Part shown: in pieces, positions 3,740 through 54,223 of the stretch
Numbering within the stretch: the first letter of the stretch is position 1
Layout of the letters: every line of letters begins with the position of its first letter
NCBI RefSeq assembly: GCF_035994945.1
Contig: NZ_CP108677.1
Coordinates: 2,232,001 to 2,296,000, forward strand
DNA length: 64,000 bases
Direction of reading: 5' to 3'
Source: Streptomyces sp. NBC_01216
GTDB taxonomy: Bacteria > Actinomycetota > Actinomycetes > Streptomycetales > Streptomycetaceae
Translations under genes and position numbers: made by a program
Notes under the pieces: generated by a model
The model's input: only the letters and a program-made list of their open reading frames with translations
What the model was told of the DNA's origin: nothing
Database searches by the model: none

Positions 3740-4300
3740 TCACACCTCGTGACTGTCGAGCCAGCGGCGTACCGCGGGGCTCAACGCCGGCTCATCCGGC
3801 TCGTCCATCGCTCCCTCCGCCACCCATGCGGCGAACCGTCGGAGGACGTGGGAACGATGCGGCGCCGTCAGCACCGAGGTACTGATGGCGTGCTCCCAGG
3901 TGGTCGCGAAGCAGAGCACGTCCCCGTCGAGCGAGAGCATGCGGAACTCAGGGCGGCAGGGCGCGCTTCCGAGTAGCCCGGCAGCGCCCCTCCCCATGAT
4001 GTCCCACGAGCTCTGCAACTCGACACAGGCCCATCGAGAGGGGCCTTCCTCCTCGGGCGGGAGCGCGAGCAGGAACCTGCGGTCGGTCGCGGAGAAGAGT
4101 CCTCCTTCGAGCGACAACCGGTACCAGTCGGCGTTCGCCTTCTCGCACAGCAGCGGATCGCTGATGTCCAGCATGGCCTCGATGCGGCCTTCTTCAAAGG
4201 GGCAGCTCGGAGCCTGGCCGGCGATGAGGGGTGGAATGAGCCCTTCCGGCTCAGTCCACCCGTCCACCATCAGTAGACCCGCTGCGGCGAGAGAACTCAT
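3740..4300 (-). CDS. Putative immunity protein of the RHS toxin
   Basis: A 186-residue protein of no family I recognise, with no signal peptide or membrane segment, so it is probably cytosolic. The start is placed at ATG 4298-4300, which overlaps the stop of the RHS toxin gene as ATGA. A longer GTG start at 4318 exists but lies within the toxin gene and has no ribosome binding site. A small cytosolic gene stop-to-start coupled to the 3' end of a polymorphic toxin is the standard arrangement for an immunity gene, and that is the basis of the call. The sequence is rich in Trp, Glu and Leu and acidic at its C-terminus. Not excluded: an unrelated hypothetical gene. Confidence 0.7.
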   Translation of the reverse strand: MSSLAAAGLLMVDGWTEPEGLIPPLIAGQAPSCPFEEGRIEAMLDISDPLLCEKANADWYRLSLEGGLFSATDRRFLLALPPEEEGPSRWACVELQSSWDIMGRGAAGLLGSAPCRPEFRMLSLDGDVLCFATTWEHAISTSVLTAPHRSHVLRRFAAWVAEGAMDEPDEPALSPAVRRWLDSHEV

Positions 4301-12219: not shown

Positions 12220-12412
12220 GGCTAGGCGTCCCCGCCCCAGCCATGACAGTGGACCTGAAGCACGCATGTGCGTCGACTCCCACCAGGCAGATCTATCGAT
12301 GGACGAGGTGCGGAAACACCAAAGAGCACGCACCTGGCTCAGGCGCGTGCGAGCGCACTCTCTGTCATGAACGCCGCGCATTTCAACATCGAAAACGGCA
12401 GGCCGACGATCT

Positions 12413-38274: not shown

Positions 38275-38544
38275 CGTAGGGTTCGAACCGGAAGCACACG
38301 TTCTGCGTCTACCTGTACAGGACGTGATCAGGGATGCGGACCAAACCGGACCGCAGCCGCCTCCTCGCGTACCCGCGAGTGGGCAGAACCTCGCTTGTTT
38401 CCCGCCATTCCCTGCTCCGAAACACCCCTTCAAGTGTGACTTGCGCGACGTTGGAGTGCCCGGCCTGCACCTCTCGGCCAGGGAGGCGTAGCCTTTATTT
38501 CCGCTGTCCATCACCTTGTGAAGCGGAAGAGGGCGGTTACCGCC

Positions 38545-41500
38545 GTGTCGTCTCAGTCCCCCAGTAACTCGAGCTCCCCCAGCCTCCGGGCGGGTGGTAC
38601 CCCCATCACGGGCCAAGACGGGCAGGGTCAGAACCCTGCGACCGCCTTCGGCGCCAATGAGTGGCTCGTCGACGAGATCTACCAGCAGTACCTCGAGGAC
38701 CCTCATTCGGTCGATCGTGCCTGGTGGGACTTCTTCGCCGACTACAAGCCCGGCTCGTCGGAGACTCCCGCCGCCGCGGGGGCGGCCGGAGCCGCGCCGA
38801 GCTCCCCGGCCACTCCGAGCGCGCCGGCCGCTCCGCAGGCGGGTCCCGCACAGGCCGCGCCTGCGCCGACCCCGGCCCGGCCCGCCGCGGTCGCGCCGGC
38901 GCCCGCGAAGCCCGCCCCGGCTCCGGCCAAGGCTCCCGCTCCCGCTCCCGCTCCCGCCGCCAAGGCTCCGGCCGCCGCCACCGCCGGACCCGAGCTGATC
39001 ACGCTGCGCGGCCCCGCCGCCGCGGTCGCGAAGAACATGAACGCCTCGCTGGAGGTGCCGACGGCCACGTCCGTCCGCGCCGTCCCGGTGAAGCTGCTCT
39101 TCGACAACCGGATCGTGATCAACAACCACCTCAAGCGCGCCCGGGGCGGGAAGATCTCCTTCACGCACCTGATCGGCTACGCGATGGTGCAGGCGATCAA
39201 GGCCATGCCGTCGATGAACCACTCCTTCGCGGAGAAGGACGGCAAGCCGACCCTGATCAAGCCGGAGCACGTGAACTTCGGTCTCGCGATCGACCTGGTG
39301 AAGCCGAACGGCGACCGCCAGCTCGTCGTCGCGGGCATCAAGAAGGCCGAGACGCTGAACTTCTTCGAGTTCTGGCAGGCATACGAGGACATCGTCAAGC
39401 GCGCCCGGGTCGGCAAGCTCACGATGGAGGACTTCTCCGGCGTCACGGTCTCGCTGACCAACCCCGGCGGCCTCGGCACCGTCCACTCCGTGCCCCGCCT
39501 GATGCCCGGACAGTCCGTGATCATGGGCGTCGGCTCGATGGACTACCCGGCCGAGTTCCAGGGCACTTCCCAGGACACCCTGAACAAGCTGGGCATCTCG
39601 AAGGTCATGACGCTGACCTCGACGTACGACCACCGGGTCATCCAGGGCGCCGCCTCCGGCGAGTTCCTGCGCGTCGTCGCCAACTTCCTCCTCGGCGAGA
39701 ACGGCTTCTACGACGACATCTTCAAGGCCCTGCGCATCCCCTACGAGCCGGTGCGCTGGCTCAAGGACATCGACGCCTCGCACGACGACGACGTCACCAA
39801 GGCCGCCCGGGTCTTCGAGCTGATCCACTCCTACCGGGTCCGCGGCCACGTCATGGCCGACACCGACCCGCTGGAGTACCGCCAGCGCAAGCACCCCGAT
39901 CTGGACATCACCGAGCACGGTCTCACCCTGTGGGACCTGGAGCGCGACTTCGCGGTGGGCGGTTTCGCCGGCAAGTCGATGATGAAGCTCCGCGACATCC
40001 TCGGCGTCCTGCGCGACTCGTACTGCCGCACCACCGGCGTCGAGTTCATGCACATCCAGGACCCGAAGCAGCGCAAGTGGATCCAGGACCGCGTCGAGCG
40101 CACGCACTCCAAGCCGGAGCGCGAGGAGCAGCTGCGTATCCTGCGCCGGCTGAACGCCGCGGAGGCATTCGAGACCTTCCTCCAGACCAAGTACGTCGGT
40201 CAGAAGCGGTTCTCGCTGGAGGGCGGCGAGTCCGTCATCCCGCTGCTCGACGCGGTCATCGACTCCGCCGCCGAGTCCCGGCTGGACGAGGTCGTCATCG
40301 GCATGGCCCACCGCGGCCGGCTGAACGTCCTCGCCAACATCGTCGGAAAGTCCTACGCGCAGATCTTCCGCGAGTTCGAGGGCAACCTCGACCCGAAGTC
40401 GATGCACGGCTCCGGCGACGTGAAGTACCACCTGGGCGCTTCGGGCACCTTCACGGGCCTGGACGGTGAGCAGATCAAGGTCTCGCTGGTCGCCAACCCC
40501 TCGCACCTGGAGGCCGTCGACCCGGTCCTGGAGGGTGTCGTCCGCGCCAAGCAGGACGTCATCAACAAGGGCGGCACGGACTTCACCGTCCTGCCCGTCG
40601 CCCTGCACGGCGACGCGGCCTTCGCCGGCCAGGGTGTGGTCGCCGAGACGCTGAACATGTCGCAGCTGCGCGGCTACCGCACCGGCGGCACGGTCCACAT
40701 CGTCATCAACAACCAGGTCGGCTTCACCGCGGCCCCGGAATCCTCGCGTTCCTCGATGTACGCGACCGACGTGGCCCGCATGATCGAGGCGCCGATCTTC
40801 CACGTGAACGGCGACGACCCGGAGGCCGTGGTCCGTGTCGCGCGGCTCGCCTTCGAGTTCCGCCAGACGTTCAACAAGGACGTCGTGATCGACCTCATCT
40901 GCTACCGCCGCCGCGGTCACAACGAGGGCGACAACCCGCAGTTCACCAACCCGCAGATGTACAACCTGATCGACAAGAAGCGTTCGGTGCGCAAGCTGTA
41001 CACCGAGTCGCTCATCGGTCGCGGCGACATCACGCTGGAAGAGGCGGAGCAGGCGCTCCAGGACTTCCAGGGCCAGCTGGAGAAGGTCTTCGCCGAGGTC
41101 CGCGAGGCCACCTCCGCGCCGGCCCCGGCGCACGTCCCGGACCCGCAGCCGGAGTTCCCGGTCACGGTCACCACCGCGGTCTCCCAGGAGGTCGTGAAGC
41201 GGATCGCCGAGTCCCAGGTCAACGTCCCGGAGCGGATCACGGTCCACCCGCGTCTGATGCCGCAGATGCAGCGTCGCGCGGCGTCCGTCGACGACGGCAC
41301 GATCGACTGGGGCTTCGGCGAGACCCTCGCCATCGGCTCGCTGCTGATGGAGGGCACCCCGGTCCGGCTGTCCGGCCAGGACTCGCGCCGTGGCACCTTC
41401 GGCCAGCGCCACGCGGTCCTGGTGGACCAGGAGACCGGTGAGGACTACACCCCGCTGCTCTACCTGACCGACGACCAGGCCCACTACAACGTCTACGACT

Positions 41501-42351
41501 CGCTGCTCAGCGAGTACGCGGCGATGGGCTTCGAGTACGGCTACTCGCTGGCCCGCCCGGACTCCCTGGTCGTCTGGGAGGCCCAGTTCGGTGACTTCGT
41601 CAACGGCGCCCAGACCGTCGTCGACGAGTTCATCTCCTCGGCCGAGCAGAAGTGGGGCCAGACCTCCGGCGTCACGCTGCTCCTGCCGCACGGCTACGAG
41701 GGCCAGGGCCCGGACCACTCGTCCGCCCGCCCGGAGCGCTTCCTGCAGATGTGCGCGCAGGACAACATGACGGTCGCCATGCCGACCCTGCCGTCGAACT
41801 ACTTCCACCTGCTGCGCTGGCAGGTCCACAACCCGCACCACAAGCCGCTCATCGTCTTCACGCCGAAGTCGATGCTGCGTCTGAAGGCCGCGGCGTCGAA
41901 GGTGGAGGAGTTCACCACTGGCGGCTTCCGCCCGGTGATCGGCGACGACTCGGTGAACCCGGCCGATGTCCGCAAGGTCGTCTTCTGCGCGGGCAAGGTC
42001 TACTACGACCTGGAGGCCGAGCGGCAGAAGCGCGGTGTCACGGACACGGCGATCATCCGTCTGGAGCGCCTGTACCCGCTGCCGGGTGCCGAGGTCCAGG
42101 CCGAGATCGCCAAGTACCCGAACGCCGAGAAGTACCTGTGGGCGCAGGAGGAGCCGGCGAACCAGGGTGCCTGGCCGTTCATCGCGCTCAACCTGATCGA
42201 CCACCTGGACCTGGCGGTCGGCGCCGACATCCCGCAGGGCGAGCGCCTGCGCCGGATCTCGCGTCCGCACTCCTCGTCCCCGGCGGTCGGTTCGGCCAAG
42301 CGTCACCAGGCCGAGCAGCAGCAGCTGGCCAACGAGGTCTTCGACGCCTGA
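38545..42351 (+). CDS. kgd: Multifunctional 2-oxoglutarate decarboxylase/dehydrogenase (Kgd)
   Basis: A 1,268-residue TCA-cycle enzyme of the actinobacterial type. An N-terminal segment ([14 protein letters not shown]) is followed by an Ala/Pro linker (~70-145), then an E2-like acyltransferase domain (~150-380, [16 protein letters not shown] motif), then a ThDP-dependent E1 domain ([33 protein letters not shown]). It decarboxylates 2-oxoglutarate and can feed the dehydrogenase complex. GTG 38545 is chosen because the conserved N-terminus ([10 protein letters not shown]) starts there; the frame extends to 38518. It stands alone with a strong terminator. Confidence 0.95.
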
Positions 42352-42468: not shown

Positions 42469-45400
42469 TCAGCCGAGGTTGGCCTCGAAGTCCCAGTAGG
42501 GGCGGTTGCGCTGGCGGGCGGAGAGCGTGTGCGGGTGCTGCGCGCCGAGCGTCCGGGTGAGGGTGAGCAGCGCGTCCTCCTCGATCTTCGCGGCCTCCTC
42601 GACCTCGCGCAGGCCGCGGAGGTCGGTGGCGAGCGCGACCTGGCAGGAGAGGGTGAGGGGGTGCTCGTTGCCCAGGGCGTGCCGGGCGCGCCGGAGGGTG
42701 TCCCGGCTGAGTTCGGCGGCGTCCGCCACCCGGCCGTTGAAGTTGCGGGCGGCGGTGGCGTTGAGCGCGCAGCCCAGGACCCAGGGATGGTCGGGGCCCA
42801 GGGTGGCGGTCAGCCCGGCGAGCGCGCCCTCCATCATCACCATGGCGTCGGCGCGTTCTCCGGCCGCCTGCATGACGAGGGCGGTGTTGGCGAGGACGCC
42901 GGTGGCCACGGGGTGGGCGGGGCCGAGGAGGGCGCGGTAGCCGGCCTCGGCCTCGTTGCTGAGTTCGCGGGCGTGGTCGAGGTCGCCGTGCTCGCGGAGG
43001 TAGTTGGCGTAGTTGTTGATGGAGGACAGGGTCACGTAGTGGCCGCGGCCGTGGACCTGTTCCAGTTGTTCGAGCAGGCTCGCCATGGTGGCGCCGAGGT
43101 CCTGCTGGAAGCCGCCCTCACGGCGGCGGCACAGGGCGAGTTGGGAGCGGGCGTACAGGGTCTGGAGGTGCTGGGCGCCGAGGACCTGGACGTGGACCCG
43201 GACGTTGGCCTCCTGGCGAGCCAGGGCCTCACGGTAGCGGCCGAGCAGCCGGAGGTCCTGGGCGACGGCGTTGCTGGAGTTGAGGCTGTGGGCGTGGCGG
43301 GCGCGTAGCAGGCTCTCGCTGCGGGACAGCGATTCGACGTCCTCGTCGTACGCCTCCTGGTAGCGGCCGAGCATCCGCAGGACGACGCCCAGGTTGTGGC
43401 GGGCGACGAGGGTGAGGAACTCGGTCTCGCCGAGGAGGCGCCGCGACTCGGCGAGGCAGGCGCGCTGGATGCGTTCGGACTCGCGGTACTGGCCGAGGAA
43501 GCGCAGGTCGCTGGCGATGGCGACGGTGGAGCGCAGCGAGCCGAGTTCGTCGCGGTCGGGGGCCGCGTCGAGCCGTCGGCGCAGGGCGAGGTCGAGTTCG
43601 TAGGCGTCCCGGAAGCGACCGTGGGAGCGCAGGATGTTGCCTTCCTGCGTGGTCAGCTCCAGCATGGCGGGGGCGAGCGGTTCCATGAAGGTGGACCAGT
43701 GCTCCCGGATCTTCTCGGCGAGGCGGACGCCGGCGCGGAACTCGGCGCTGCGGAAGCAGTAGCGGAGGCAGTTGAGGACGGCGGACTGGATGCGCGGGGC
43801 CCGGCTGGAGAGTGCGCCGGAGGGCTCCAGGTGCGGGAGGAGTTCGGCGTAGCGGGGCCAGTGGCGGCTGTCCATGGGGTTGCCGGGATCGGCCTCGGCG
43901 ATCAGGGTGCGGACGGCCCTGCGGTGCGCGTCGCGGTGCTCGCCGTCGGTGAGGCGGGCGACGATGTCGTGGACGAGCCGGTGCATGTGCACGGACTCCT
44001 GGTGAGGTTCCATCTCGACGCTGGTGGCGGGTCCGCGGGACTCGCGGGTGAGCACCGAGTAGTTGACCAGGGTGTCCAGGGCCCGGGTCCAGGCGGGCAG
44101 GTCGGTGGCCATCCAGCGCAGGTCCTCGGGCAGTTCGGCCTGGGGGTAGGCGCGGACGATGCCGAGCGGGATCCGGCCGGGGGCGAAGGAGGCGCACAGG
44201 CTGAGGACGTCGATGGCCTGGGGCTGGGAGCGGCGGAGCCGGTTGATCAGTATCGACCAGGAGGTCAGCGAGGCGTGGGGGAAGCCGTCGCCGGCGGAGG
44301 GTTCGTCCACCGTGGACAGCCGGCCGTCGCGGACCATGCGCAGGTACTCGGGGACCTCCATGCCGGACTCGCCGAGCCAGGAGGCGGCCTGGACGAGCGG
44401 GAGCGGGACGTCGCCGAACTCGGCGGCGACCTCGTCGGCCTGGGGCGCGGTGATGTGGGGTGCGCGGCGCATCAGGTAGGCGGTGGACTCGGCGCGGTCG
44501 AAGCCGGGGACCTCGACGACGTCGGTGTGGTCGCCCCAGGCGCGGTTGCGTGAGGTGATCAGGACGTGGCCGGGGCCGTGCGGCAGCAGTACGGGCGCGC
44601 CGTCGGTGTCGTCCCATCCGTCGAAGACGACGAGCCAGCGGGCGTGCGGGTCGCCGCGGCGCAGGGCCTCGCGGACCGCCCGGATGCGTTCGCCGGGCTC
44701 GTTGCCGCTGGCCAGGCGGAGTTCGGCGGCGAGTTCGCCGAAGCGGTCGCGCTGGACGTTGCGGTCGTCGGAGTTGACCCACCAGATCACGTCGTAGTCG
44801 GGGCTGAAGCGGTGGGCGTACTCGGCGGCGATCTGGGTCTTGCCGATGCCGGACATGCCGAGGAGGGTGCAGGCCGCGTTGCCGCGTTCGGCGTCCATGA
44901 GCCGTTCCTGGAGGGTGGTCAGGAGATCGTCGCGGCCGGTGAAGCGGGAGTTGCGGCGCGGGACCTCGCCCCAGACCTCGGGTGGGGTGTCGGGGTAGCG
45001 GACCTTCGCGCCGGACGGCAGGCGGCGGGCGGCGGAGCGGCGGGGTTCGATGCCGAGCCTGCTGAACAGCCGTGCCTCGGCCTCGTCCTCCCCGACGCCC
45101 CAGAGGCTGACCGGCTCGAGGACGGCGGTGGCGGGGAGGAGGGGCCTGTTGGTGAGGTTGACGGCCGCGAAGCGGTCGGCGTGTGCGGCGACGAAGCCGC
45201 GCAGCACGTCGTTCCACTCGCCCGCGGGGCGGGGGCCGATGTCGAAGAACCAGTCGTTGAGGACCAGGAGGACACGGCCCCGGGCGAGCAGCAGGTCGCC
45301 GAGCGAGTCCTCCAGCGCCACCTCGCGGGGCGGGTCCCAACGTTGGAGGGTGACGCGGACGCCCTGTGCTTCGAGGCGCTGGCCGAGCCAGGCCGCCCAC

Positions 45401-45492
45401 GGTCGGTGGTAGCCGGGGAAGACCACGAGGACGTGTTCGGGGGCGGCCCTGCCGCTGTCCACCGCTCCACCGCCCGGCCGTTGTTCCGCCAT
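42469..45492 (-). CDS. TIR-like / NB-ARC / TPR protein (FxSxx-system FxsT type)
   Basis: A 1,007-residue STAND-type protein. An N-terminal TIR-like fold (~20-135, HVLVVFPGYHRPWAAWLGQRL ...) is followed by an NB-ARC-type NTPase with P-loop GMSGIGKTQIA (~212), Walker B LVVFDGWDD and sensor VLITSRNR. The C-terminal half is TPR repeats (~560-980; units such as HPWVLGCALNATAARNF and GRYQEAYDEDVESL). NCBI names proteins of this architecture FxSxx-system TPR protein; STAND proteins are signal-dependent switches. ATG 45492 is preceded by GGAGACGGAGAG; the longer frame to 45627 overlaps upstream coding and is rejected. It is the last gene of the minus-strand block. Confidence 0.88.
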   Translation of the reverse strand: MAEQRPGGGAVDSGRAAPEHVLVVFPGYHRPWAAWLGQRLEAQGVRVTLQRWDPPREVALEDSLGDLLLARGRVLLVLNDWFFDIGPRPAGEWNDVLRGFVAAHADRFAAVNLTNRPLLPATAVLEPVSLWGVGEDEAEARLFSRLGIEPRRSAARRLPSGAKVRYPDTPPEVWGEVPRRNSRFTGRDDLLTTLQERLMDAERGNAACTLLGMSGIGKTQIAAEYAHRFSPDYDVIWWVNSDDRNVQRDRFGELAAELRLASGNEPGERIRAVREALRRGDPHARWLVVFDGWDDTDGAPVLLPHGPGHVLITSRNRAWGDHTDVVEVPGFDRAESTAYLMRRAPHITAPQADEVAAEFGDVPLPLVQAASWLGESGMEVPEYLRMVRDGRLSTVDEPSAGDGFPHASLTSWSILINRLRRSQPQAIDVLSLCASFAPGRIPLGIVRAYPQAELPEDLRWMATDLPAWTRALDTLVNYSVLTRESRGPATSVEMEPHQESVHMHRLVHDIVARLTDGEHRDAHRRAVRTLIAEADPGNPMDSRHWPRYAELLPHLEPSGALSSRAPRIQSAVLNCLRYCFRSAEFRAGVRLAEKIREHWSTFMEPLAPAMLELTTQEGNILRSHGRFRDAYELDLALRRRLDAAPDRDELGSLRSTVAIASDLRFLGQYRESERIQRACLAESRRLLGETEFLTLVARHNLGVVLRMLGRYQEAYDEDVESLSRSESLLRARHAHSLNSSNAVAQDLRLLGRYREALARQEANVRVHVQVLGAQHLQTLYARSQLALCRRREGGFQQDLGATMASLLEQLEQVHGRGHYVTLSSINNYANYLREHGDLDHARELSNEAEAGYRALLGPAHPVATGVLANTALVMQAAGERADAMVMMEGALAGLTATLGPDHPWVLGCALNATAARNFNGRVADAAELSRDTLRRARHALGNEHPLTLSCQVALATDLRGLREVEEAAKIEEDALLTLTRTLGAQHPHTLSARQRNRPYWDFEANLG

Positions 45493-45550
45493 CTCTCCGT
45501 CTCCCGTCCCACTCCCGCGCAACGCAGTGTGATCTGCCCTGGGCACAGTG

Positions 45551-46831
45551 TCACCCAGAGGCCCTGGGGGCCGCGCCGAGGCTCGCGTGGTGCCCCGCCA
45601 TTTGTCGGGCGAACTCCCTTCCCTCATTGGTCAGTTCATCGGATTCAAGCAGGATCGCCAATGCCTCGCCCACCTGATCGTGGATATCGTCGAACTGCTG
45701 CCCGGCATGGGTGCGCCAGGGCGCCGGCACCTGTGTGGCGGTCGCGGTGCGGCGCCAGAGGTCGGCCAGGGCCAGGTGCGCGTAGGCGCCCTGGAACACC
45801 CCGGCGACCGGGCGCGGATCGGGACGCCAGCCGACCCGGTGCAGGGCGGCCCGCCCGGGCCGGTACAGCGGGACGGCTTCGTGCAGGGTGGCGAGTTTGC
45901 CGTGGTGGATCTCGTGCACCAGGGTCTCCGCCAGATCGGGCCCCCCGGCGGCCGGGGAGGACAGTACGGCGCCGGGTGCGGCGCTCAGGGTGGCGCCGAC
46001 GGACCGCGGTCCGTTCGGGGTGAGCGGGACGAGGAGGCGTACGGCCCGGCGGGTCTCGGCCGCCCGGTCGCTGTCCGTCCGCGCGAGCAGTTCGTGGGCG
46101 TCCCGCCAGTGGGCCACCCAGCCGGGCCGGTCGGTGTCGGTGTGGTCGGCCGCCCTGCGGAGCGGGTCGCCGAATCCGCCGGGCGGCACCCGGTAGGGGT
46201 CCAGGTCGTCCAGGCGCGCGGTGGACCCGGGCAGCAGGGGCAGCCCGGTCCAGGCGGGACCGCGCCCGACGAGGGTGCCGGCGCGGCGGTCGGTGAGGAG
46301 CAGGACGGTGGGGGCGGCCGGGCTTCCGCCCTCGGCGTGCAGCCGGACCACGCGGGACCGCGCCCGGATGCGGACCGGGCCCGCGCTCGGCAGCCGCAGG
46401 CGCCCCACGCCGGGCAGCGAGAGCAGGCCGTCCGGTGCCTCGACGGCCAGGTCGAGGGGGCGACCCGCACGGAGCGCGCCGGTCACGGCGAGGACCTCCA
46501 GCCGGTCGAGGTGCCGGTCGAAGGCGGGACCGGTCGGTCCGGCGAGCGCCACGGCCAGCCACACGCCGGTCGTGGGGTAGTCGAGCAGGTCCCGGACGAC
46601 GCCGGGGTGGCGCCGCTCGGTCTGTTCGAGCAGATGCCAGGACGTCTCGAACCGGCGGAGGACGGTGGGGTCGACGGCGTCGCGGTCCCGCCGGGCACGG
46701 ACCAGCAGGGACTTGAGGAGCACCAGGCGGCGGGCGCGCAGGGCGGAGCGCAGCAGCGCGGTCCCCTCCGATGCGGGCCGAGTGCGGGCGAGTGCGCCGA
46801 GTACGGCGGAGGACGGCGGGGGAAGCCTCAT
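45551..46831 (-). CDS. HExxH peptide-modifying enzyme (putative alpha-KG peptide beta-hydroxylase)
   Basis: A 426-residue protein whose hallmark is LAETLVHEIHHGKL (~305), the HExxH motif of the 'HEXXH motif-containing putative peptide modification protein' family. Family members have been reported to be 2-oxoglutarate-dependent Fe enzymes that beta-hydroxylate precursor peptides rather than proteases; this is recalled knowledge. The usual form is fused to or beside a radical SAM enzyme (FxsB); here it stands alone. The remainder is helical, Arg/Leu-rich and lacks a signal peptide. It starts 75 bases after the small peptide gene, which is its likely substrate. Confidence 0.82.
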   Translation of the reverse strand: MRLPPPSSAVLGALARTRPASEGTALLRSALRARRLVLLKSLLVRARRDRDAVDPTVLRRFETSWHLLEQTERRHPGVVRDLLDYPTTGVWLAVALAGPTGPAFDRHLDRLEVLAVTGALRAGRPLDLAVEAPDGLLSLPGVGRLRLPSAGPVRIRARSRVVRLHAEGGSPAAPTVLLLTDRRAGTLVGRGPAWTGLPLLPGSTARLDDLDPYRVPPGGFGDPLRRAADHTDTDRPGWVAHWRDAHELLARTDSDRAAETRRAVRLLVPLTPNGPRSVGATLSAAPGAVLSSPAAGGPDLAETLVHEIHHGKLATLHEAVPLYRPGRAALHRVGWRPDPRPVAGVFQGAYAHLALADLWRRTATATQVPAPWRTHAGQQFDDIHDQVGEALAILLESDELTNEGREFARQMAGHHASLGAAPRASG

Positions 46832-46906
46832 TCCGGCCCCCCTGTCACGACGGCCGGGCGCCGACCGGATCTGACCGGAAAACGCCGGTCGGACCGGGGC
46901 CCGCGG

Positions 46907-47116
46907 TCAGGAGTGGTGGTGGTTGCCGCCCGCCCCCTCGGCCCAGAACTCCACGAGTTCGCCGGAGCGCAGCAGGACGCGGCGGACGGCTGCCTCCAGG
47001 TCCGGATCCTCGGTACGGCGCAAGGTTCGCAGGTCGAAGGCCGCGAGATCGGGAAGCTGCGGAGATCCCGCGGCATCCCGGTCGGTACCGGTCGCCCACT
47101 CCGTGCGCTGCAACAC
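46907..47116 (-). CDS. Small RiPP precursor-like peptide (FxSxx-leader related)
   Basis: A 69-residue peptide. GTG 47116 has a strong AGGAGG ribosome binding site about 8 bases upstream, which supports real translation. The middle (LPDLAAFDLRTLRR, then DPDLEAAVRRVLL) resembles the leader region of FxSxx-COOH precursors as I recall them. The tail, however, is EFWAEGAGGNHHHS, with no F-x-S-x-x end. Its position next to an HExxH modifying enzyme and an FxsT-like protein supports a precursor role; His, Asn, Phe or Trp in the tail are candidate modification sites. It could instead be an unrelated small protein. Confidence 0.68.
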   Translation of the reverse strand: MLQRTEWATGTDRDAAGSPQLPDLAAFDLRTLRRTEDPDLEAAVRRVLLRSGELVEFWAEGAGGNHHHS

Positions 47117-47254
47117 CCTCGGTTCCTCCTCACCGACCCTTGTCCCCCACGGTCGTAGCGGCGCAGCGGTTCTTCCCGACGCCGGTGAGGCAGAAACCCG
47201 TTCGACTCAACTGCGCCCATTCACGCCCCTGTTGTCCAGCCGTCTCCGTGGCGC

Positions 47255-50200
47255 CTATCCGGCGCCCCCGTTCCAGGTCCACCAGGGCGGAGCGGTCCGG
47301 CGGCGTTCGTCGGCGGAGAGCCGCACCGGACGGGCGGCCTGCTGTGCCGTCACCTCCGCGAGCAGGCTCAGGGTCCGCTCGACGTCGCCCCGGTCGACCT
47401 CCACCAGGGCGGCCACCAGCCGCCGCCACCGCTCGGCCGCGGCCCGCAGCACCGCCTCCGCCCGCGCGGTGCGGCCCATGAGCCGCAGGACCGCGCCCTC
47501 GGCGTGCAGGGCGCGCGCTCCGGTGACCGCGCCCGGGGTGTCGCCGTGGGCGGAGCGGGCGTCCTCGGAGCAGCGCTGGTAGGCGGTGAGCGCGTCACCG
47601 AGCACCCCGTCCCGGGACGTCTCGCTCAGTTCCAGTCTCACTCTGGCGAGTTGCAGCCACGCCTCGCAGCTCAGCGCGGGTTCCCCCGTCGTCCGTACGG
47701 CCTGTTCCAGGAGGTGGCGGCTTTCGAACAGGTCGGGCAGGAATCCGGCCCGGTGAAAGCGCAGGGCCAGCACGCTGCCGATCAGGATGCGGGCCTTGTG
47801 CCGCTCGGTCGCGTCGGCGGGCAGCGCGGTGAGTGCCTCGCGCAGCACCCCTTCGGCCCGGTCGACGGACGGGGTGCCGCCGTCGGTCGCGGCACGTCGC
47901 AGCAGCGATTCGCCCCAGGCCATCAGGAGCCGGCCGCGCCGCGCGCTGTCGGCGGGCGCCAGCAGGGTGGCCTGTTCGTAGGCAGCGTCGGTGGCCGGTC
48001 CGTCGCCGACGGAGTCGTGGAGCCGGGCCCAGGCGGTGGTCCAGCGCAGACGCAGGGCGCCCCCTTCGCCGACCAGCGGTTCGGCACGGTCCAGCACGGA
48101 GGCGATCCGGGCGGGTTCGCCGCCCGCGAGACGGAGGGCGTCGGCCAGGTCGAGGAGGGCGGGGCCGGTCTCCCCGGTCGCGAGGGCGGCGCTCAGCGCG
48201 GCGACCGCACCGGGTCCGTCGCCGCGAGCCAGCAGGAGCCGGCCGCGCCGGAGGTGAAGGGAGTGGTGGTGGTCTTCGGGCCATTCCGCCGGGTCCCCCG
48301 TCAGGGCGCGGAGCGCGGCGTCCAGGTGGGCGGCGTCGCCGGTGTGCCGCCACAGGGCGTGGCGGGCGGCGGCCAGTTCGAGACGGGCCTGCGCCCCCTC
48401 CTCCTCGCCGCTGCCGGTCAGCTCCGCCGCGCCGTCCAGTGCGGCCGCCGCGCGCCGCAGCAGCTCGCCACGCCGTGCGGTGGCGCGGCCGGCCGCGGTG
48501 CCCGCCTCGGCGTACAGCACCCGTCCGAGGAGCACGCGGGCGCGGACGGGGTCCTCGGCGAGCGCCGCCTCGGCCCGCTCGCGGGCGACGCTCAGCAAGG
48601 AGGGGTCGGACTGGCCGCGCCACCGGTCGAGCAGCCGACGCGCCTCGGTGAGCGGTTCCGGGGTGACGAGGTCGGGGTGGTAGAAGCGGAGCACGCGCGC
48701 GGGGATGCGGGCGAACAGTTCGGGCTCGGGGCCCACCGGGCCTGTCGGCTCGTCCGTCTCCTCGGGCGGCGGCGCGTCGTCCTCGGTGGTCTGTCCGGCG
48801 AGACGGGCCGCGGCCAGGGCCGGGAAGTTCCGCATGCCGTGGCCGAAGTTGCGCTCCACGTAGGCGGAGCAGTGTTTGAGGACGAGGGCGGCCGCGCCGC
48901 GGTCCAGGGAGCCGAGGAGCTGCCGCTGCACGCCGGGCGGGTAGCTGTAGCAGGGGTACGGCGTGGGGCCGGGCAGTTGGCGCAGGAGTCCGCTCAGGAG
49001 CACTTCGGCGAGTTCCATGGGGCCGGTGTCGGGCAGCATCGCGCGCTGGACGAGCTGCATGACGGGAAGGGTCAGCGGGGCGGCGGCGAGATGGACGGCG
49101 AGGCGCAGGGCGCCCGGGGAGGCGCCGGCGCGGAACACGCGCAGCAGGTCCTCGTCGCGCGGGGGCCGGGCCGGCGTGCCCGCCGCCGGGGCCTCGGTCC
49201 GCGCGGGTCCGGGGCCGATCCGGGCGGCCCACCCCCGGACGGCACCCGTGCCCTGGCCGCTGAACAGCCGGGCCCAGGAGGCGAAGGCTTCCGGGGTCGG
49301 GGTGAGGACGGGCACGGCTCGGGCGTCGTCGGGAGCGGGCTCCCAGGGTTCCTCGTCGGGCTGGAAGAGGGTGCGTCCGCCGGGACCGGTGGCGCGGGAC
49401 AGGGTGCCGGGTTCGACGGTCAGGGCGGTGCGCGCCCACAGCCTCGGGGGCAGCGGCTGGACGACGGCGAGCGGGGAGCTGCGGGGCCACTGGTGGATGA
49501 GCCGCTGGGCCGCGCCGCGCCGCCAGAGCGGGCCGACGCAGTCACTCACGAGGAGGGTGAGGCAGCGGCCGGTGGGGTCGTGGAGCTGGTCGCCGGGACG
49601 CAGCCGGGGGTGGCCGTCGGCTCCGGTGGTGGTGGTGACCAGGGGTGGACCGGCGCCGGTGTCGTACAGCCGGTGGACCCGGACGTCGCGGAAGGCGCCG
49701 GACTGCTGGCAGGCCTGGCGCAGTTCCTCCACCATCCGGGTCCAGACGACCATGGCGGGGCCGGTGTCCATGAGGAGCTGGATGTCCGGGCGGCGCCCGG
49801 CGGCCGGGCGGAGGACCGGGGTGAGGACGCCGGCGGCGGCGCTGCGGTCGGCGGTCGCCTCCTCGTCAAGGGTTCCTTCGCCGGGGCGCGGCGGGAACAG
49901 GGCGTAGTGGCGGAGCGGTCGGAGGGCCTTCTGGAGTCCGAGGAGTCCGGGCAGGGCGTTGGCGCCGGGGGCGCGGACGCGCAGGGCGGCGCGGCCTTCC
50001 GTGCCGCCGTCGGCAGGGCGGGCGCCGCCGTGCGGTGTGTGGAGGGCGACGGTCTCCGGGGCGGGTGGCGGGGGGCCGGGGTCGGAGACGTCGTCACCCG
50101 CGGTGCCGGGTGACTCCCGGCCGTCCGGGTCGTCGCCCTTCCCGGGGGGCGGGGCGGCGGCCGGGCCGCCCGCCCGGCCCGCCGCCGGGTCCGGCGGGCC

Positions 50201-50311
50201 GGCCGGGAGCCACTGGGCGAGCCAGACGGCGTCCGCGAGTTCCTCGGCGGTGGGGTGCCGGCCGCCGGCCCGGAGCCGGCGCGTGAGTTCTTCCAGATGC
50301 ATCCGGTGCAT
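47255..50311 (-). CDS. vWA-like SAV_2336-type protein with C-terminal TPR-like repeats
   Basis: A 1,018-residue protein. After a Pro/Gly/Ala-rich N-terminal region (~20-100) there is a von Willebrand A-like fold (~165-320) with a degenerate metal site (LLMDTGPAMVVW in place of DxSxS) and LTLLVSDCVGPLW. A helical middle part (~390-520) precedes TPR-like repeats (~560-1000) rich in Ala, Leu and Arg. NCBI calls such proteins SAV_2336 N-terminal domain-related. Within the vWA-MoxR-VMAP conflict class the vWA partner occupies this position. ATG 50311 is preceded by GAGGTGATGG, and it starts 7 bases after the MoxR stop, so both are in one operon. Confidence 0.8.
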   Translation of the reverse strand: MHRMHLEELTRRLRAGGRHPTAEELADAVWLAQWLPAGPPDPAAGRAGGPAAAPPPGKGDDPDGRESPGTAGDDVSDPGPPPPAPETVALHTPHGGARPADGGTEGRAALRVRAPGANALPGLLGLQKALRPLRHYALFPPRPGEGTLDEEATADRSAAAGVLTPVLRPAAGRRPDIQLLMDTGPAMVVWTRMVEELRQACQQSGAFRDVRVHRLYDTGAGPPLVTTTTGADGHPRLRPGDQLHDPTGRCLTLLVSDCVGPLWRRGAAQRLIHQWPRSSPLAVVQPLPPRLWARTALTVEPGTLSRATGPGGRTLFQPDEEPWEPAPDDARAVPVLTPTPEAFASWARLFSGQGTGAVRGWAARIGPGPARTEAPAAGTPARPPRDEDLLRVFRAGASPGALRLAVHLAAAPLTLPVMQLVQRAMLPDTGPMELAEVLLSGLLRQLPGPTPYPCYSYPPGVQRQLLGSLDRGAAALVLKHCSAYVERNFGHGMRNFPALAAARLAGQTTEDDAPPPEETDEPTGPVGPEPELFARIPARVLRFYHPDLVTPEPLTEARRLLDRWRGQSDPSLLSVARERAEAALAEDPVRARVLLGRVLYAEAGTAAGRATARRGELLRRAAAALDGAAELTGSGEEEGAQARLELAAARHALWRHTGDAAHLDAALRALTGDPAEWPEDHHHSLHLRRGRLLLARGDGPGAVAALSAALATGETGPALLDLADALRLAGGEPARIASVLDRAEPLVGEGGALRLRWTTAWARLHDSVGDGPATDAAYEQATLLAPADSARRGRLLMAWGESLLRRAATDGGTPSVDRAEGVLREALTALPADATERHKARILIGSVLALRFHRAGFLPDLFESRHLLEQAVRTTGEPALSCEAWLQLARVRLELSETSRDGVLGDALTAYQRCSEDARSAHGDTPGAVTGARALHAEGAVLRLMGRTARAEAVLRAAAERWRRLVAALVEVDRGDVERTLSLLAEVTAQQAARPVRLSADERRRTAPPWWTWNGGAG

Positions 50312-50318
50312 CCGGCCA

Positions 50319-51320
50319 TCACCTCGGCTGATCGAGCGGCTGCATGAGCATGTCCGCGATGCGTTCCCTGGTCACCCGCTCGGTGCGCGGGGCGTGCTGG
50401 GTCAGGTAGAGGGCGTTGAGGAGCTGGTCGGTGGCGATGACCTCGCCGGGCTCGCGGTTCAGGAAGCGGCTGACGAGGCTCTGTTCGCCGGTCGCGGCGT
50501 CCGTGCCGAGATGGGCCTCGATCATGGCGCGCACCTGCTCCTCGCCGGGCGGTTCCAGTTCGAGCCGGATGCAGCGGCGCAACAGGGCGGCGGGAAAGTC
50601 CCGTTCGCCGTTGGAGGTGAGCACGATGAACGGAAAGGTGGTGCAGCGGATCCGTCCGCCGCGCACCGGGACCTTGCGGCCGTCGTCGGTGAGTACCTCG
50701 ACGACGGGTTCGCGGTCGGCGAGCCGTTCCAGCTCCGGGAGGGCGAACTCGCCTTCCTCCAGGGCGTTCAGCAGGTCGTTGGGCAGGTCGAGGTCGCTCT
50801 TGTCGAGTTCGTCGATGAGTAGGACGCGGGGCTGTTCGGAGGGGAGCAGCGCGGTGCCGAGCGGGCCCAGGCGGATGTACGAGCCGATACCGGCGGCGGC
50901 CGGGCCGGGTGCGCCGGTCTGGGCGCGTTCCAGCTGGACGTCCTGGAGGCGGCCGATGGCGTCGTAGCGGTAGAGCCCGTCCTGGAGGGTGGAGCGGCTG
51001 ACGATCGGCCAGCGCAGGACACGGCCCAGTCCGAGTTCGTGGGCGACGGCGTGGGCGAGCGTGGACTTCCCGGTTCCGGGGTTGCCGGTGACCAGGAGCG
51101 GGCGGCGCAGATAGAGGGCGGCGTTGACGGCGTCGGTCTCGGCGGGGCGGGGGTGGTGGTTGCGGACGAGCCGCCGGCGTACGCCGAGCCGCCGGTCGGA
51201 GCCGGCCAGGGTGTCGTCGGCGGCGCCGGCCGAGAAGTCACGCCAGGGCGGGGGCGGGGGGAGCCGTCTGATCTCGTCGTGCGGGTGGCCGGCACCACGG
51301 TAGATCCGCCAATCGTTCAC
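50319..51320 (-). CDS. MoxR-family AAA+ ATPase
   Basis: A 333-residue AAA+ ATPase. Walker A is VTGNPGTGKSTLAHAVAHE (~77) and Walker B VLLIDELDKSDLDLPNDLL (~168), followed by sensor 1 IVLTSNGERDFP and arginine-finger region ALLRRCIRLEL. MoxR proteins act as chaperone-like partners for vWA-domain proteins and remodel complexes; here the vWA-like partner is the next gene. GTG 51320 is preceded by AGGAGGAG. The ORF sits 118 bases after the VMAP gene and carries an N-terminal ~50-residue Pro/Arg-rich extension. Confidence 0.92.
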   Translation of the reverse strand: MNDWRIYRGAGHPHDEIRRLPPPPPWRDFSAGAADDTLAGSDRRLGVRRRLVRNHHPRPAETDAVNAALYLRRPLLVTGNPGTGKSTLAHAVAHELGLGRVLRWPIVSRSTLQDGLYRYDAIGRLQDVQLERAQTGAPGPAAAGIGSYIRLGPLGTALLPSEQPRVLLIDELDKSDLDLPNDLLNALEEGEFALPELERLADREPVVEVLTDDGRKVPVRGGRIRCTTFPFIVLTSNGERDFPAALLRRCIRLELEPPGEEQVRAMIEAHLGTDAATGEQSLVSRFLNREPGEVIATDQLLNALYLTQHAPRTERVTRERIADMLMQPLDQPR

Positions 51321-51438
51321 GAGGGGCTCCTCCTGGCTGTGGTGGGGTGGCCGGTCCCGTCGGCGGTTCCGTCCGGGCGGGCTGGGGGCGTCCGGCGTGG
51401 GGCGGTTCTTCGGGGCGGGTGTCGCGGCGGGTGTCCGG

Positions 51439-53487
51439 TCATGGGGCGGCCTCTTCGCCCAGCAGGAGGGGACCCTGGAGCGGCGGGGCGTGCGGTGGCC
51501 GGTCGGGCGGGTCCGTCAGGACGGCGAGATGCTCGGCCCAGGCGTCGGCGGACCGTTCCCCGGGGTCGGCTTCGTCGTCACCCGCCCTGATCCGCAGGGT
51601 GCGGACCGGCCGGTGCAGCCCGCCGGCCCGCCCCGCCTCCGCGAGCAGCCGGTTCGCCCGCTCGTGGAAGTCGGCGCAGTCCTCGTGCGGGTGCGTGCCG
51701 GTCCGCCACAGGGCGAGGGGGTGGCCCGCTGCGAGCGCGGCGGCCATGGCGCGGCGGCCCTCGTCGGCGCCGACCCGCCCGCAGTAGACCGGAACGGCTC
51801 CCTCCTCGGCGTCGAGGAGCCGGGCGAACGACTGCCGTGGGGTCTCCCGGCGCAGGTGTGGGGCGTGGGCGTCGGTTCCGGCCGCGGCCACCTCGGCGCG
51901 CAGCGGGACCGCGCGGAGCGGTCCGTGTTCGGCGGCCCGCCAGCGTTTGAGCCACTCGTGCGACGGCGGTCCGGCCCGGCGGCCGGCGTGCCGGATGACG
52001 ACGGTGCGTTGCTGTCCCAGGGTGAGCGCGTACGGGCCGAGGAGTTCGTCATCGGGTGTGAGCCGCCAGGCGTCGACGGGCAGGTCGAAGAGGTCGAGGG
52101 GCAGCACCGCCTCGACGGCCGCCAGGTGTTCGCCGCTGTCGCCGTGGCTGAGCGCGTCGGCGAGCGGCCCGCGCAGGGTCTCCTCCAGCCTGTCACGCTC
52201 CACGCCGTGGTCGTCGTGGTGCAGCGGGCTGATCGTGCGCCCGTCGAAGAGGAGCTTGATCCGCCAGGGAAAGCGGGTGCCGTAGTGCGGGGTGTCGATC
52301 TCCACGAGGACGTCGGCGCGGGCCCGGGACTCCCGTACGGCGGAGGCCGCGTCCGGTCCCGGGGCGAGGAGCCGGGCGATCTCCTGCCGGATGGCGGGGT
52401 GCGCCTCGACCGCCTCGTCGCCGGTCCAGCGGGCCAGGCTCCGCAGGGCGGGGCTGTCGCCGTGCCGGGCGGTGACGTGCCGGGCGACCAGGGCGGCGTA
52501 GAGGAACACGGCGTCGAGGCCGAGGTCCTGCTGTGCCTCCTGCGCGGGGTCGCGTAGTTCGTGGAGGAGGCCGACCCCTTCCCGCCAGGTGCGCGGGTCC
52601 GCTTCGAGGACCGACTGGAAGTCGTCGTGCAGGACGCGTCGTTTGACCTCGTCGACGAGGTGCATGACCTCGCCGGGTCCGGCGGGCGGGGGCAGTTCGG
52701 CGAGGCGCCCGTACAGGTGGACGCGGCGGCCGGGTCCGACGCCCTGAGTGGTGGGGGGCCGGAGCCGTATCTGTGCCCGTGTCCAGTCGGGCGCCCCGGC
52801 GAGGGAACGGTAGCGGCCGAGGTGGTGGCGGTCGTGGTCGCGCATCACCTGGTGGAGGATCTCGCCGCCGGGGGCGTCGTGCAGTGCGCGCAGGGCGGTG
52901 ATCGGGACGGCCGCGCCCTCGTCCCGGCCGCGGCCCTTGTTGAGTCCGATGACGGTGCCCCGGGCGAGGTCGACGACCGGGCCCCCGGAGAGCCCCTCCA
53001 CGGGCAGGGTCCAGCGCAGCAGCAGCGCGCCGCCGTCGACGGCGTGCGCCTCGCCGACGGCCTGGCGGATGCCGACCCTTCCGGTCTGCCGGGACCAGCC
53101 GTGCAGGCTGACCGGGATGGGTTTCGTGATGACGGGCGGTCGTTCGCTCAGCCGGACGCAGGAGACGTCCCGGGCTTCGGGAACCCGGACGAGGGCGAGG
53201 TCCGGGAAGTCCCAGTGGGTGAGGTCCCGGCCGGGCCGTTCGGGGCGCGGTTCGGCGAGGACCACCTCGCCGGTGGCGGCCCTGTCCTGCCAGCTGAGGC
53301 CGACGGCCCGCTCGTGTCTCCACACCGCGCTTCCCCCCTTGGCCACGACGTGGGCACAGGTCAGGACCCAGCCGGGGGCGATGAAGAAGCCGCTGCCCCA
53401 GTACCGGTCGCCGTGCGGGTCATACCCGTCTCCGGGGGCGGCGATGCGCACGAGCGCGGGGCGCACGAGCGCGTCCAGGGCGCTCAT
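51439..53487 (-). CDS. Trypsin-like protease with VMAP-C domain
   Basis: A 682-residue protein. The N-terminal ~190 residues form a trypsin fold with an intact triad: His in VLTCAHVV (~43), Asp in DLALVRVPEA (~95) and Ser in GLSGGPVVDL (~167). There is no signal peptide, so it acts in the cytosol. From ~270 to 640 lies a domain matching the vWA-MoxR-associated protein C-terminal (VMAP-C) region: GPGEVMHLVDEVKRRVL, DVLVEIDTPHYG, FPWRIKLLFDGR and LPLDLFDLPVDAWRL. Its ATG overlaps the upstream gene's stop (ATGA). A longer frame to 54024 is rejected because the trypsin fold starts at MSALDALVRP. Probably an activatable protease in a conflict system. Confidence 0.88.
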   Translation of the reverse strand: MSALDALVRPALVRIAAPGDGYDPHGDRYWGSGFFIAPGWVLTCAHVVAKGGSAVWRHERAVGLSWQDRAATGEVVLAEPRPERPGRDLTHWDFPDLALVRVPEARDVSCVRLSERPPVITKPIPVSLHGWSRQTGRVGIRQAVGEAHAVDGGALLLRWTLPVEGLSGGPVVDLARGTVIGLNKGRGRDEGAAVPITALRALHDAPGGEILHQVMRDHDRHHLGRYRSLAGAPDWTRAQIRLRPPTTQGVGPGRRVHLYGRLAELPPPAGPGEVMHLVDEVKRRVLHDDFQSVLEADPRTWREGVGLLHELRDPAQEAQQDLGLDAVFLYAALVARHVTARHGDSPALRSLARWTGDEAVEAHPAIRQEIARLLAPGPDAASAVRESRARADVLVEIDTPHYGTRFPWRIKLLFDGRTISPLHHDDHGVERDRLEETLRGPLADALSHGDSGEHLAAVEAVLPLDLFDLPVDAWRLTPDDELLGPYALTLGQQRTVVIRHAGRRAGPPSHEWLKRWRAAEHGPLRAVPLRAEVAAAGTDAHAPHLRRETPRQSFARLLDAEEGAVPVYCGRVGADEGRRAMAAALAAGHPLALWRTGTHPHEDCADFHERANRLLAEAGRAGGLHRPVRTLRIRAGDDEADPGERSADAWAEHLAVLTDPPDRPPHAPPLQGPLLLGEEAAP

Positions 53488-53945
53488 GCGGAGCCGTCGG
53501 CCGCCGGGGGGTGGGGCGGGCCGGTATCGGGGGCGGGGCCGGGGGTGTGGGGTGCGGGGATCGGCGCGCCGGCCGTCGCGGGTCCGGGGGCGGCTGGCGG
53601 TGCCGTGCCGGGGACGGGGCCCGGCTCGGTCCAGGTCAGCGAGACCGAGACGGAGGCGGTGCCGCCACCGTCGGCGAGGACGCCGATCACCTTTCCCGCC
53701 TGCGCGGACAGTTCGACGCCGAAGCTGACGGCGACCTCCATGGGGGCCCGCGCGTCGAGGCCGGCCCGCAGCGAGCCGACGACGCCGCGTACCACGTCCG
53801 TGAGTCCCCCGGCCATCGAGACCACCCGGTCGCCGATGCCGGTGTCCTGGAAGCCGCCGCCCCGGTCGAGTTCGTCCGCCCCGCTGATCCGGGCCCAGAC
53901 GGGTGTGCCGTCGTCCAGTCGGATCCGAGCGATCCCGTGCGCCAC
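53484..53945 (-). CDS. Trypsin-co-occurring domain 1 (CU044_2847 family) protein
   Basis: A 153-residue protein. Residues ~1-115 match the family by pattern: IARIRLDDGTPVWARISG, a central GIGDRVVSMAGGLTDVV amphipathic part, and SVSFGVELSAQAGKVIGV. The C-terminal ~40 residues are Pro/Ala/Gly-rich and disordered. The domain occurs beside or fused to trypsin-like proteases of conflict systems and probably controls them. It is the first gene of the minus-strand block and overlaps the VMAP protein gene by ATGA. Confidence 0.85.
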   Translation of the reverse strand: MAHGIARIRLDDGTPVWARISGADELDRGGGFQDTGIGDRVVSMAGGLTDVVRGVVGSLRAGLDARAPMEVAVSFGVELSAQAGKVIGVLADGGGTASVSVSLTWTEPGPVPGTAPPAAPGPATAGAPIPAPHTPGPAPDTGPPHPPAADGSA

Positions 53946-54040: not shown

Positions 54041-54223
54041 ATGTACTTCACTGACCGTGGCATCGAGGAACTGGAGAAGCGGCGGGGCGAGGAGGAGGTC
54101 TCCTTCGAGTGGCTCGCCGAGCAGTTGCGCACGTTCGTCGATCTCCATCCCGACTTCGAGGTGCCGGTCGAACGGCTCGCGACCTGGCTGGCCAGGCTCG
54201 ACGACGAGGACGAGGACGAGTAG
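54041..54223 (+). CDS. DUF6104-type small acidic protein
   Basis: A 60-residue acidic protein (MYFTDRGIEELEKRRGEEE, then EWLAEQLRTFVDLHP), a small conserved Streptomyces protein of unknown function. It is divergent from the conflict-system operon and lies between it and repeat R2. No signal peptide or membrane segment. The ATG is the only plausible start. Confidence 0.82.
   Translation: MYFTDRGIEELEKRRGEEEVSFEWLAEQLRTFVDLHPDFEVPVERLATWLARLDDEDEDE

Follow-up and report, generated by a model that had tools for sequence, protein, structure and literature searches.

A probable radical-SAM-free variant of VMAP-plus-peptide-processing conflict systems at a fixed position in the Streptomyces chromosome

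Combinations of VMAP and peptide-processing systems have been described in FxSxx, RxD, acidic and FtsH types, which in the available text of Kaur et al. (2020; PMC7159879) account for about 20% of actinobacterial VMAP systems; in the FxSxx type, as given there, a TIR AP-ATPase is encoded downstream and a radical SAM gene is present. The peptide-processing modules of these systems have been predicted since 2020, and we found no experiments on them in open-licence PubMed Central. We analyzed a stretch of 64,000 nucleotides from Streptomyces sp. NBC_01216 (NZ_CP108677.1, positions 2,232,001 to 2,296,000; hereafter the window), which carries at 42469-53945, on the reverse strand, a VMAP module followed by a small precursor peptide, an HExxH enzyme and a TIR/NB-ARC/TPR protein. 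We read this cluster as a conflict system of the VMAP-plus-peptide-processing kind that lacks radical SAM, lies in a fixed Streptomyces slot and works as proposed below, and we put the probability of this reading at about 55%. The merger of a VMAP system with a peptide-processing cluster is already known (PMC7159879) and is no discovery; what may be new, going beyond the available text of that paper, is a hydroxylase-only branch with a tryptophan tail, its conserved intergenic box and its slot.

Read from its upstream end, the cluster encodes a protein with trypsin-co-occurring domain 1 (Trypco1; 53484..53945; PF19493, E-value 2.7e-15; NF041216), a trypsin-like peptidase fused to VMAP-C (51439..53487; PF13365 and PF20028), a MoxR-like AAA+ ATPase (50319..51320; AAA_5/AAA matches), a SAV_2336-type vWA protein with a repeat-like C-terminal region (47255..50311; NF041121, 446 bits), a precursor peptide of 69 amino acids with a GTG start (46907..47116), an HExxH enzyme that is probably an alpha-ketoglutarate-dependent peptide hydroxylase (45551..46831; TIGR04267, 139 bits for a cut-off of 40) and, as probable effector, a TIR/NB-ARC/TPR protein of the FxSxx_TPR family (42469..45492; NF040586, 732 bits for a cut-off of 300, with TIR_2, NB-ARC and TPR matches). 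MoxR AAA+, vWA and VMAP form the VMAP ternary set in one block, the VMAP being of the trypsin type with a Trypco neighbour. A first-pass annotation of the window had named all of these genes and their common strand correctly; it had counted the TIR/NB-ARC/TPR gene within 45493-53945, an interval that ends just before this gene and leaves it wholly outside. That annotation had also called the upstream genes contiguous through ATGA and 7-base joins, which is right for two of the six junctions, the 4-nucleotide ATGA overlap of Trypco1 with VMAP-C and the 7 nucleotides between MoxR and vWA, and wrong for the 118 nucleotides between VMAP-C and MoxR and the 138 between vWA and the precursor; 75 and 58 nucleotides then separate the precursor, the HExxH gene and the TIR gene.

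Using a profile of 31 HExxH homologues, we fetched 76 loci (75 titled Streptomyces and one “Actinobacteria bacterium OV450”), 68 of them with enough upstream sequence. All five core genes, with order and strand unchanged, were present in 67 of the 68 relatives (67/76 overall); eight of the other nine loci stop at a contig edge and one lacks MoxR and VMAP-C. The TIR/NB-ARC/TPR gene was present in all 76 loci, vWA in 74, MoxR and VMAP-C in 67 each and Trypco1 in 46. The neighbourhood check thus bears out the proposal that a VMAP/MoxR/vWA module is combined here with a precursor, a modifying enzyme and a TIR/NB-ARC/TPR protein, and, since the combination recurs, the objection that the two halves stand together only here is refuted. 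A union unique to this genome was rejected, as relatives keep the same gene set. The halves also occur apart, as HExxH genes with no listed vWA gene and as VMAP with radical SAM.

The loci were divided into class I (52 loci, the kind found in the window) and class II (24 loci). The radical SAM motif CxxxCx[YF]C[YF] was found in none of the 52 class I loci in the locus sequence and in all 24 class II loci, between vWA and HExxH. Trypco1 was present in 45 class I loci (44 of the 45 complete class I relatives) versus a single class II locus, and a FastTree phylogeny of concatenated MoxR, HExxH and TIR proteins (67 rows, midpoint root) split the classes with a support of 1.0. Because the loci were picked via their HExxH gene, the 76-locus set gives no linkage rate. 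Among 120 HExxH matches scoring at least 120 bits in an unbiased sample of 150 Streptomyces genomes, at least 61 had a SAV_2336 gene no more than 15 kb away; by spacing, these 61 comprised, among the matches listed, 20 that were short like class I, 35 farther away on the same strand and 6 on the opposite strand, and for 59 of the 120 no vWA gene lay within 15 kb among the matches listed. One relative, L031 (7055-9577), lacks MoxR and trypsin/VMAP-C, so that Trypco1 adjoins vWA, and keeps the precursor, HExxH and TIR genes, through either a natural deletion or an assembly fault.

The class I precursors share an FxSxx-like leader (LPDLTxVDLRTLRxMDDP...), a fixed tryptophan and an acidic, variable tail. 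The tryptophan lies 30 residues past DLxxLR in 51 of 52 precursors and 31 residues past it in one, and is followed by a tail of 6-42 residues with an acidic residue at most eight residues from the tryptophan (52/52); the window precursor ends in GGNHHHS. A second F[SP][AV] block follows the tryptophan block in 22 of 25 long class I tails and in none of 27 short ones. In moderately diverged pairs, which are not independent of one another, identity ranged from 0.69 to 0.80 in the leader and from 0.19 to 0.36 in the tail, where nonsynonymous differences were about as frequent as synonymous ones. A wider search yielded 85 homologues including that of the window, 84 of which keep the tryptophan (76 by script, 8 by eye); a C-terminal FxSxx occurred in 0 of these 85, and the leader aligned weakly with positions 1-30 of the TIGR04268 model (11.6 bits versus a cut-off of 28), and on these two grounds we rejected assignment to the FxSxx family as defined. 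In databases, the homologues are mostly named hypothetical protein and in a few cases FxSxx-COOH, and many bear PF27839 as a precomputed assignment. In class II, all 23 readable precursors have F[DN]S-xx at their C-terminus, with a mean identity of 0.82 over the final nine residues.

The HExxH motif was intact in all 52 class I enzymes, and both HExxHxK and YxH were found in 76 of 76 rows. The enzyme gave a full-length fold match to the HExxH domain of ChlBH (8s5f) and to SjiH (22nu, 22ob), at 24% and 18% identity, and TIGR04267 bears the name of a peptide beta-hydroxylase family. From family, motif and fold, an alpha-ketoglutarate hydroxylase is the most fitting reading of the enzyme, and it is probably a single hydroxylating enzyme, not the usual ring-forming one, that alters the small hypervariable peptide. 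We opened nine slot loci with no listed HExxH gene: seven carried the radical SAM motif, lacked HExxHxK and had precursors ending in A[YH][YF][DE][DN], one (L096) had both enzymes, and one (L093) was readable only in part. Two further loci, L101 and L102, are class-I-like, with HExxH only and a tryptophan tail. The core motif thus matches the maturase, which supports a real substrate relation; L096, whose precursor reads WDFNQ and not FDS, is an exception to this match. In L101 and L102 the precursors carry a long conserved extension past the tryptophan (GAIRSTSGPVHGVSDPPAGPGDGVGRHEPS).

The stretch 5' of the precursor is the most conserved intergenic stretch of the cluster, with 46 of 100 columns at least 90% conserved, compared with 18/90 before Trypco1, 23/100 before MoxR, 0/70 before HExxH and 8/55 before the TIR gene. 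It holds a promoter-like box, GTTTCT-N14-GGGAAG(A), at 47171..47197 on the reverse strand, which is the only match of the strict pattern on either strand of the window. The form GTTT-N16-GGGAAGA was found with one fixed spacing, 53-55 nucleotides before the start codon, in 50 of 51 class I loci, and the strict pattern occurred 56 times on the two strands of the 76 loci (1.51 Mb), before 50 class I and 5 class II precursors and once more in L032, farther upstream. A relaxed box precedes 13 of 23 class II precursors and occurs in 5 of 11 further slot loci; the box is not universal beyond the class I clade. SigB-family promoters of S. coelicolor have the layout GTTTnn-N12-15-GGGnAn, with GGGAAA and GGGAAC among their -10 elements according to the available text of PMC8346170, and the window box GTTTCT-N14-GGGAAG has this layout, giving the precursor half a promoter-like box to itself. 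Because this conserved box stands between the halves, a single shared transcript, whose absence the first-pass annotation took as refuting its idea, is doubtful, though no terminator-like site was found there either. Sigma-70-like promoters or terminators dividing the block were also considered and rejected, as the scan found neither (terminators expected in shuffles: 1.6).

The cluster lies between a DUF6104 gene (54041..54223, forward strand; PF19599, 125 bits) and the convergent kgd gene for 2-oxoglutarate dehydrogenase/decarboxylase E1 (38518..42351, forward strand; NF008907, 2107 bits). Among the relatives, kgd borders 51 of 52 class I and 20 of 24 class II loci, and DUF6104 borders 45/52 and 22/24. 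Of 45 class I loci, 26 have DUF6104 opposite to the cluster, facing away, and 19 have it on the cluster's strand, so the slot border on that side is not uniform. DUF6104 was matched in 148 of 150 Streptomyces genomes, and 134 genomes had DUF6104 and kgd on one contig; with an empty slot defined by a distance below 2 kb alone, 62 of these 134 were empty and 72 held an insert, among the matches listed. At least 61 of the 72 filled slots had a SAV_2336 gene and at least 42 had both SAV_2336 and an HExxH match, and all 19 measurable class I genomes had their cluster in the slot. That the slot is fixed but optional, and its modules interchangeable, suits a conflict system; a stress role, too, would suit the housekeeping gene at its border and the SigB-like box.

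The remaining proteins largely keep their catalytic residues. The trypsin triad of class I retains His in 45 of 46 rows and Asp and Ser in 46 of 46, and the Walker A and B residues of MoxR are kept in 46/46 class I and 22/22 class II rows. The TIR domain (TIR_2 match) has Glu92 in 51 of 52 class I and 21 of 24 class II rows, a residue that is, from the motif, the candidate for the catalytic glutamate. In the vWA protein, the metal ion-dependent adhesion site (MIDAS) reads DxSxS in 22 of 23 class II rows and mostly DxGxA in class I, with both Asp residues kept in both classes.

The best reading of these observations is that the cluster produces a stress-induced, hydroxylated intracellular ligand for the TIR/NB-ARC effector; we infer both the hydroxylation and a role in phage defence. 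A stress sigma factor of the SigB family would turn on the precursor/HExxH/TIR half, and the HExxH enzyme, with Fe(II), O2 and alpha-ketoglutarate, would hydroxylate residues in the short tail past the fixed tryptophan, either acidic ones or ones nearby. The modified peptide would then act as a ligand and determine the threshold of the TIR/NB-ARC/TPR protein. MoxR, vWA and trypsin/VMAP-C/Trypco1 would form an NTP-driven proteolytic switch exposing, clipping or removing the peptide; once tripped, the switch would lead to NB-ARC assembly, after which TIR would act, probably on NAD+, and stop the cell. Guard ligand, signal and protease substrate, the three roles suggested for the peptide by the first-pass annotation, are each possible.

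Several points weigh against this reading. An acidic residue within eight positions of the tryptophan is not far from chance for such acidic tails, and similar nonsynonymous and synonymous differences would also be expected if an unimportant tail drifted neutrally. According to the available text of PMC12636437, HExxH enzymes of the fused-radical-SAM type need a preinstalled cyclophane, and the HExxH relative PflC performs oxidative peptide cleavage, which becomes hydrolytic without the leader; hydroxylation of a linear tail is, given both, an extrapolation. Elsewhere, the NBC_01216 genome encodes a single FxsB-family enzyme (427 bits); its gene sits beside a HaaT gene, but the enzyme could act in trans. 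With no terminator-like site between the halves, read-through is possible, and the loss of the MIDAS serines in most class I rows weakens the peptide-capture step. A scan with PADLOC-DB 2023 gave weak matches only for the locus (RT-Protease_XI at 17.6 bits for the trypsin protein and IetA at about 22 bits for MoxR).

Other explanations were weighed against the same evidence. A role in development or general stress, in place of an anti-phage one, is somewhat unlikely for the locus: its fixed position beside a tricarboxylic acid cycle gene, the SigB-like box, the lack of any phage record, the small number of plasmid records (four, distant) encoding a similar HExxH protein and the absence of a clear PADLOC match all speak for it, and the patchy presence of inserts (DUF6104 and kgd less than 2 kb apart in 62/134 genomes, among the matches listed), together with the interchangeable slot modules, fits a conflict system better. 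Kaur et al. (PMC7159879, available text) call the HExxH protein an MPTase (metallopeptidase) releasing a peptide; a zincin peptidase, cleaving the precursor so that a toxin or signal peptide is liberated from its C-terminal end, would agree with them and with the oxidative and, without leader, hydrolytic cutting by PflC (PMC12636437, available text). We consider this unlikely in view of the TIGR04267 name and the full-length fold match to SjiH and ChlBH; HExxHxK and YxH, conserved in every row, also point away from it, though alone they cannot separate the two chemistries.

From lineage to lineage the leader persists and the tail is hypervariable, as happens when a signal and its receptor diverge together, and the peptide might accordingly be pictured as a secreted or exported signal or antimicrobial, with the TIR/NB-ARC protein as self-protection or receptor partner. 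A scan of the block 42469-53945 showed no transporter gene among the families covered, secretion itself not being specifically examined, and the conserved neighbours are DUF6104 and kgd, which makes this idea quite improbable. Equally improbable is that the halves are independent systems sharing a hotspot, as the separate promoter-like box before the precursor, the 19 of 61 vWA slots without HExxH and the HExxH matches without a nearby vWA gene (59/120), the last two among the matches listed, might suggest; against it, the peptide half is visible in 8 of the 9 opened slots (seven with radical SAM and precursor, one with both enzymes), 67 of 68 relatives share gene order and strand, and the concatenated tree splits the classes with full support (1.0), this being one joint tree in which the genes were not compared singly. 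Most speculative, and very improbable, is an immune locus of swappable chemistry, in which a constant chassis (VMAP/MoxR/vWA and TIR/NB-ARC/TPR) would be kept while the ligand is re-coded together with its maturase, pairing a tryptophan tail with HExxH, FDS with radical SAM and HExxH, and YED with radical SAM. Hydroxylation of the linear, diversifying class I tail would here report the O2, Fe(II) and alpha-ketoglutarate state: invaders or stress lowering these cofactors would leave the peptide unmodified and arm the NB-ARC protein, much as with the oxygen-sensing hydroxylases of animals. That an alpha-ketoglutarate dehydrogenase gene lies alongside is a hint at best, because this gene borders empty slots too.

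In a wider sample of 296 Actinomycetota genomes from 198 genera, the HExxH profile had matches in 8 genomes and 3 genera, and exceeded 300 bits only in NBC_01216 and one other Streptomyces (G087). A wide spread outside Streptomyces in this form was rejected, weakly, since few Streptomyces were among the 296 genomes. Carriage on phages was rejected, no phage record having matched; for plasmids, four records encoded a similar HExxH protein, all below 60% identity. Elsewhere in the NBC_01216 genome, one locus (L091; C1 4191000-4210500) combines an FxsB-family radical SAM gene, HaaT and a small frame ending in HAASLVLPWWF, apparently a Haa cyclophane system, and another (L079, near C1 5317508) has a distant HExxH match of 67 bits in one frame with an upstream radical-SAM-like frame. 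The window also contains, at 4297-12381 on the reverse strand, a frame of 2694 amino acids with lower GC content, RHS repeats and ricin-type lectin and pretoxin HINT domains, resembling polymorphic toxins.

Read as a hydroxylase-only variant, the system makes the role of the peptide easier to test: with one stand-alone enzyme it is the simplest to rebuild, from one precursor, one hydroxylase and one NB-ARC reader, and related Streptomyces with filled or empty slots provide natural controls. Compared with the systems of Kaur et al. (PMC7159879) as far as their available text goes, the locus shares the VMAP ternary set with trypsin/Trypco, a zincin-like HExxH protein and a small precursor, as well as a downstream AP-ATPase with an N-terminal TIR domain and TPR on the vWA protein. 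It differs from the form with a separate TIR AP-ATPase, which has FxSxx and radical SAM, in having neither, and from the RxD and acidic types, where the AP-ATPase is fused to the vWA protein, in keeping the two separate; a figure legend there, which can be read in two ways, gives peptide modification and Trypco-trypsin as mutually exclusive, whereas the window has both. With the FxSxx-COOH system (TIGR04268, TIGR04269, NF040586) it shares an NF040586 protein well over the cut-off and a weakly similar leader; its precursor, by contrast, falls far under the TIGR04268 cut-off and no FxsB adjoins, as no FxsB-type radical SAM gene was found at the window locus and 1.92 Mb separate this locus from the closest FxsB-family enzyme of the genome, which lies in the Haa cluster. 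The box resembles the SigB-family promoters of S. coelicolor in layout (PMC8346170, available text). PflC and PosC, as presented in the available text of PMC12636437, are likewise HExxH enzymes acting on the tail of precursors of ribosomally synthesized and post-translationally modified peptides, with other precursors and neighbours and an MNIO-nitroreductase partner. Finally, the window enzyme is like the ChlBH domain (8s5f) and SjiH (22nu, 22ob) in full-length fold and metal motif, and unlike them it stands alone, with no radical SAM partner at the locus.

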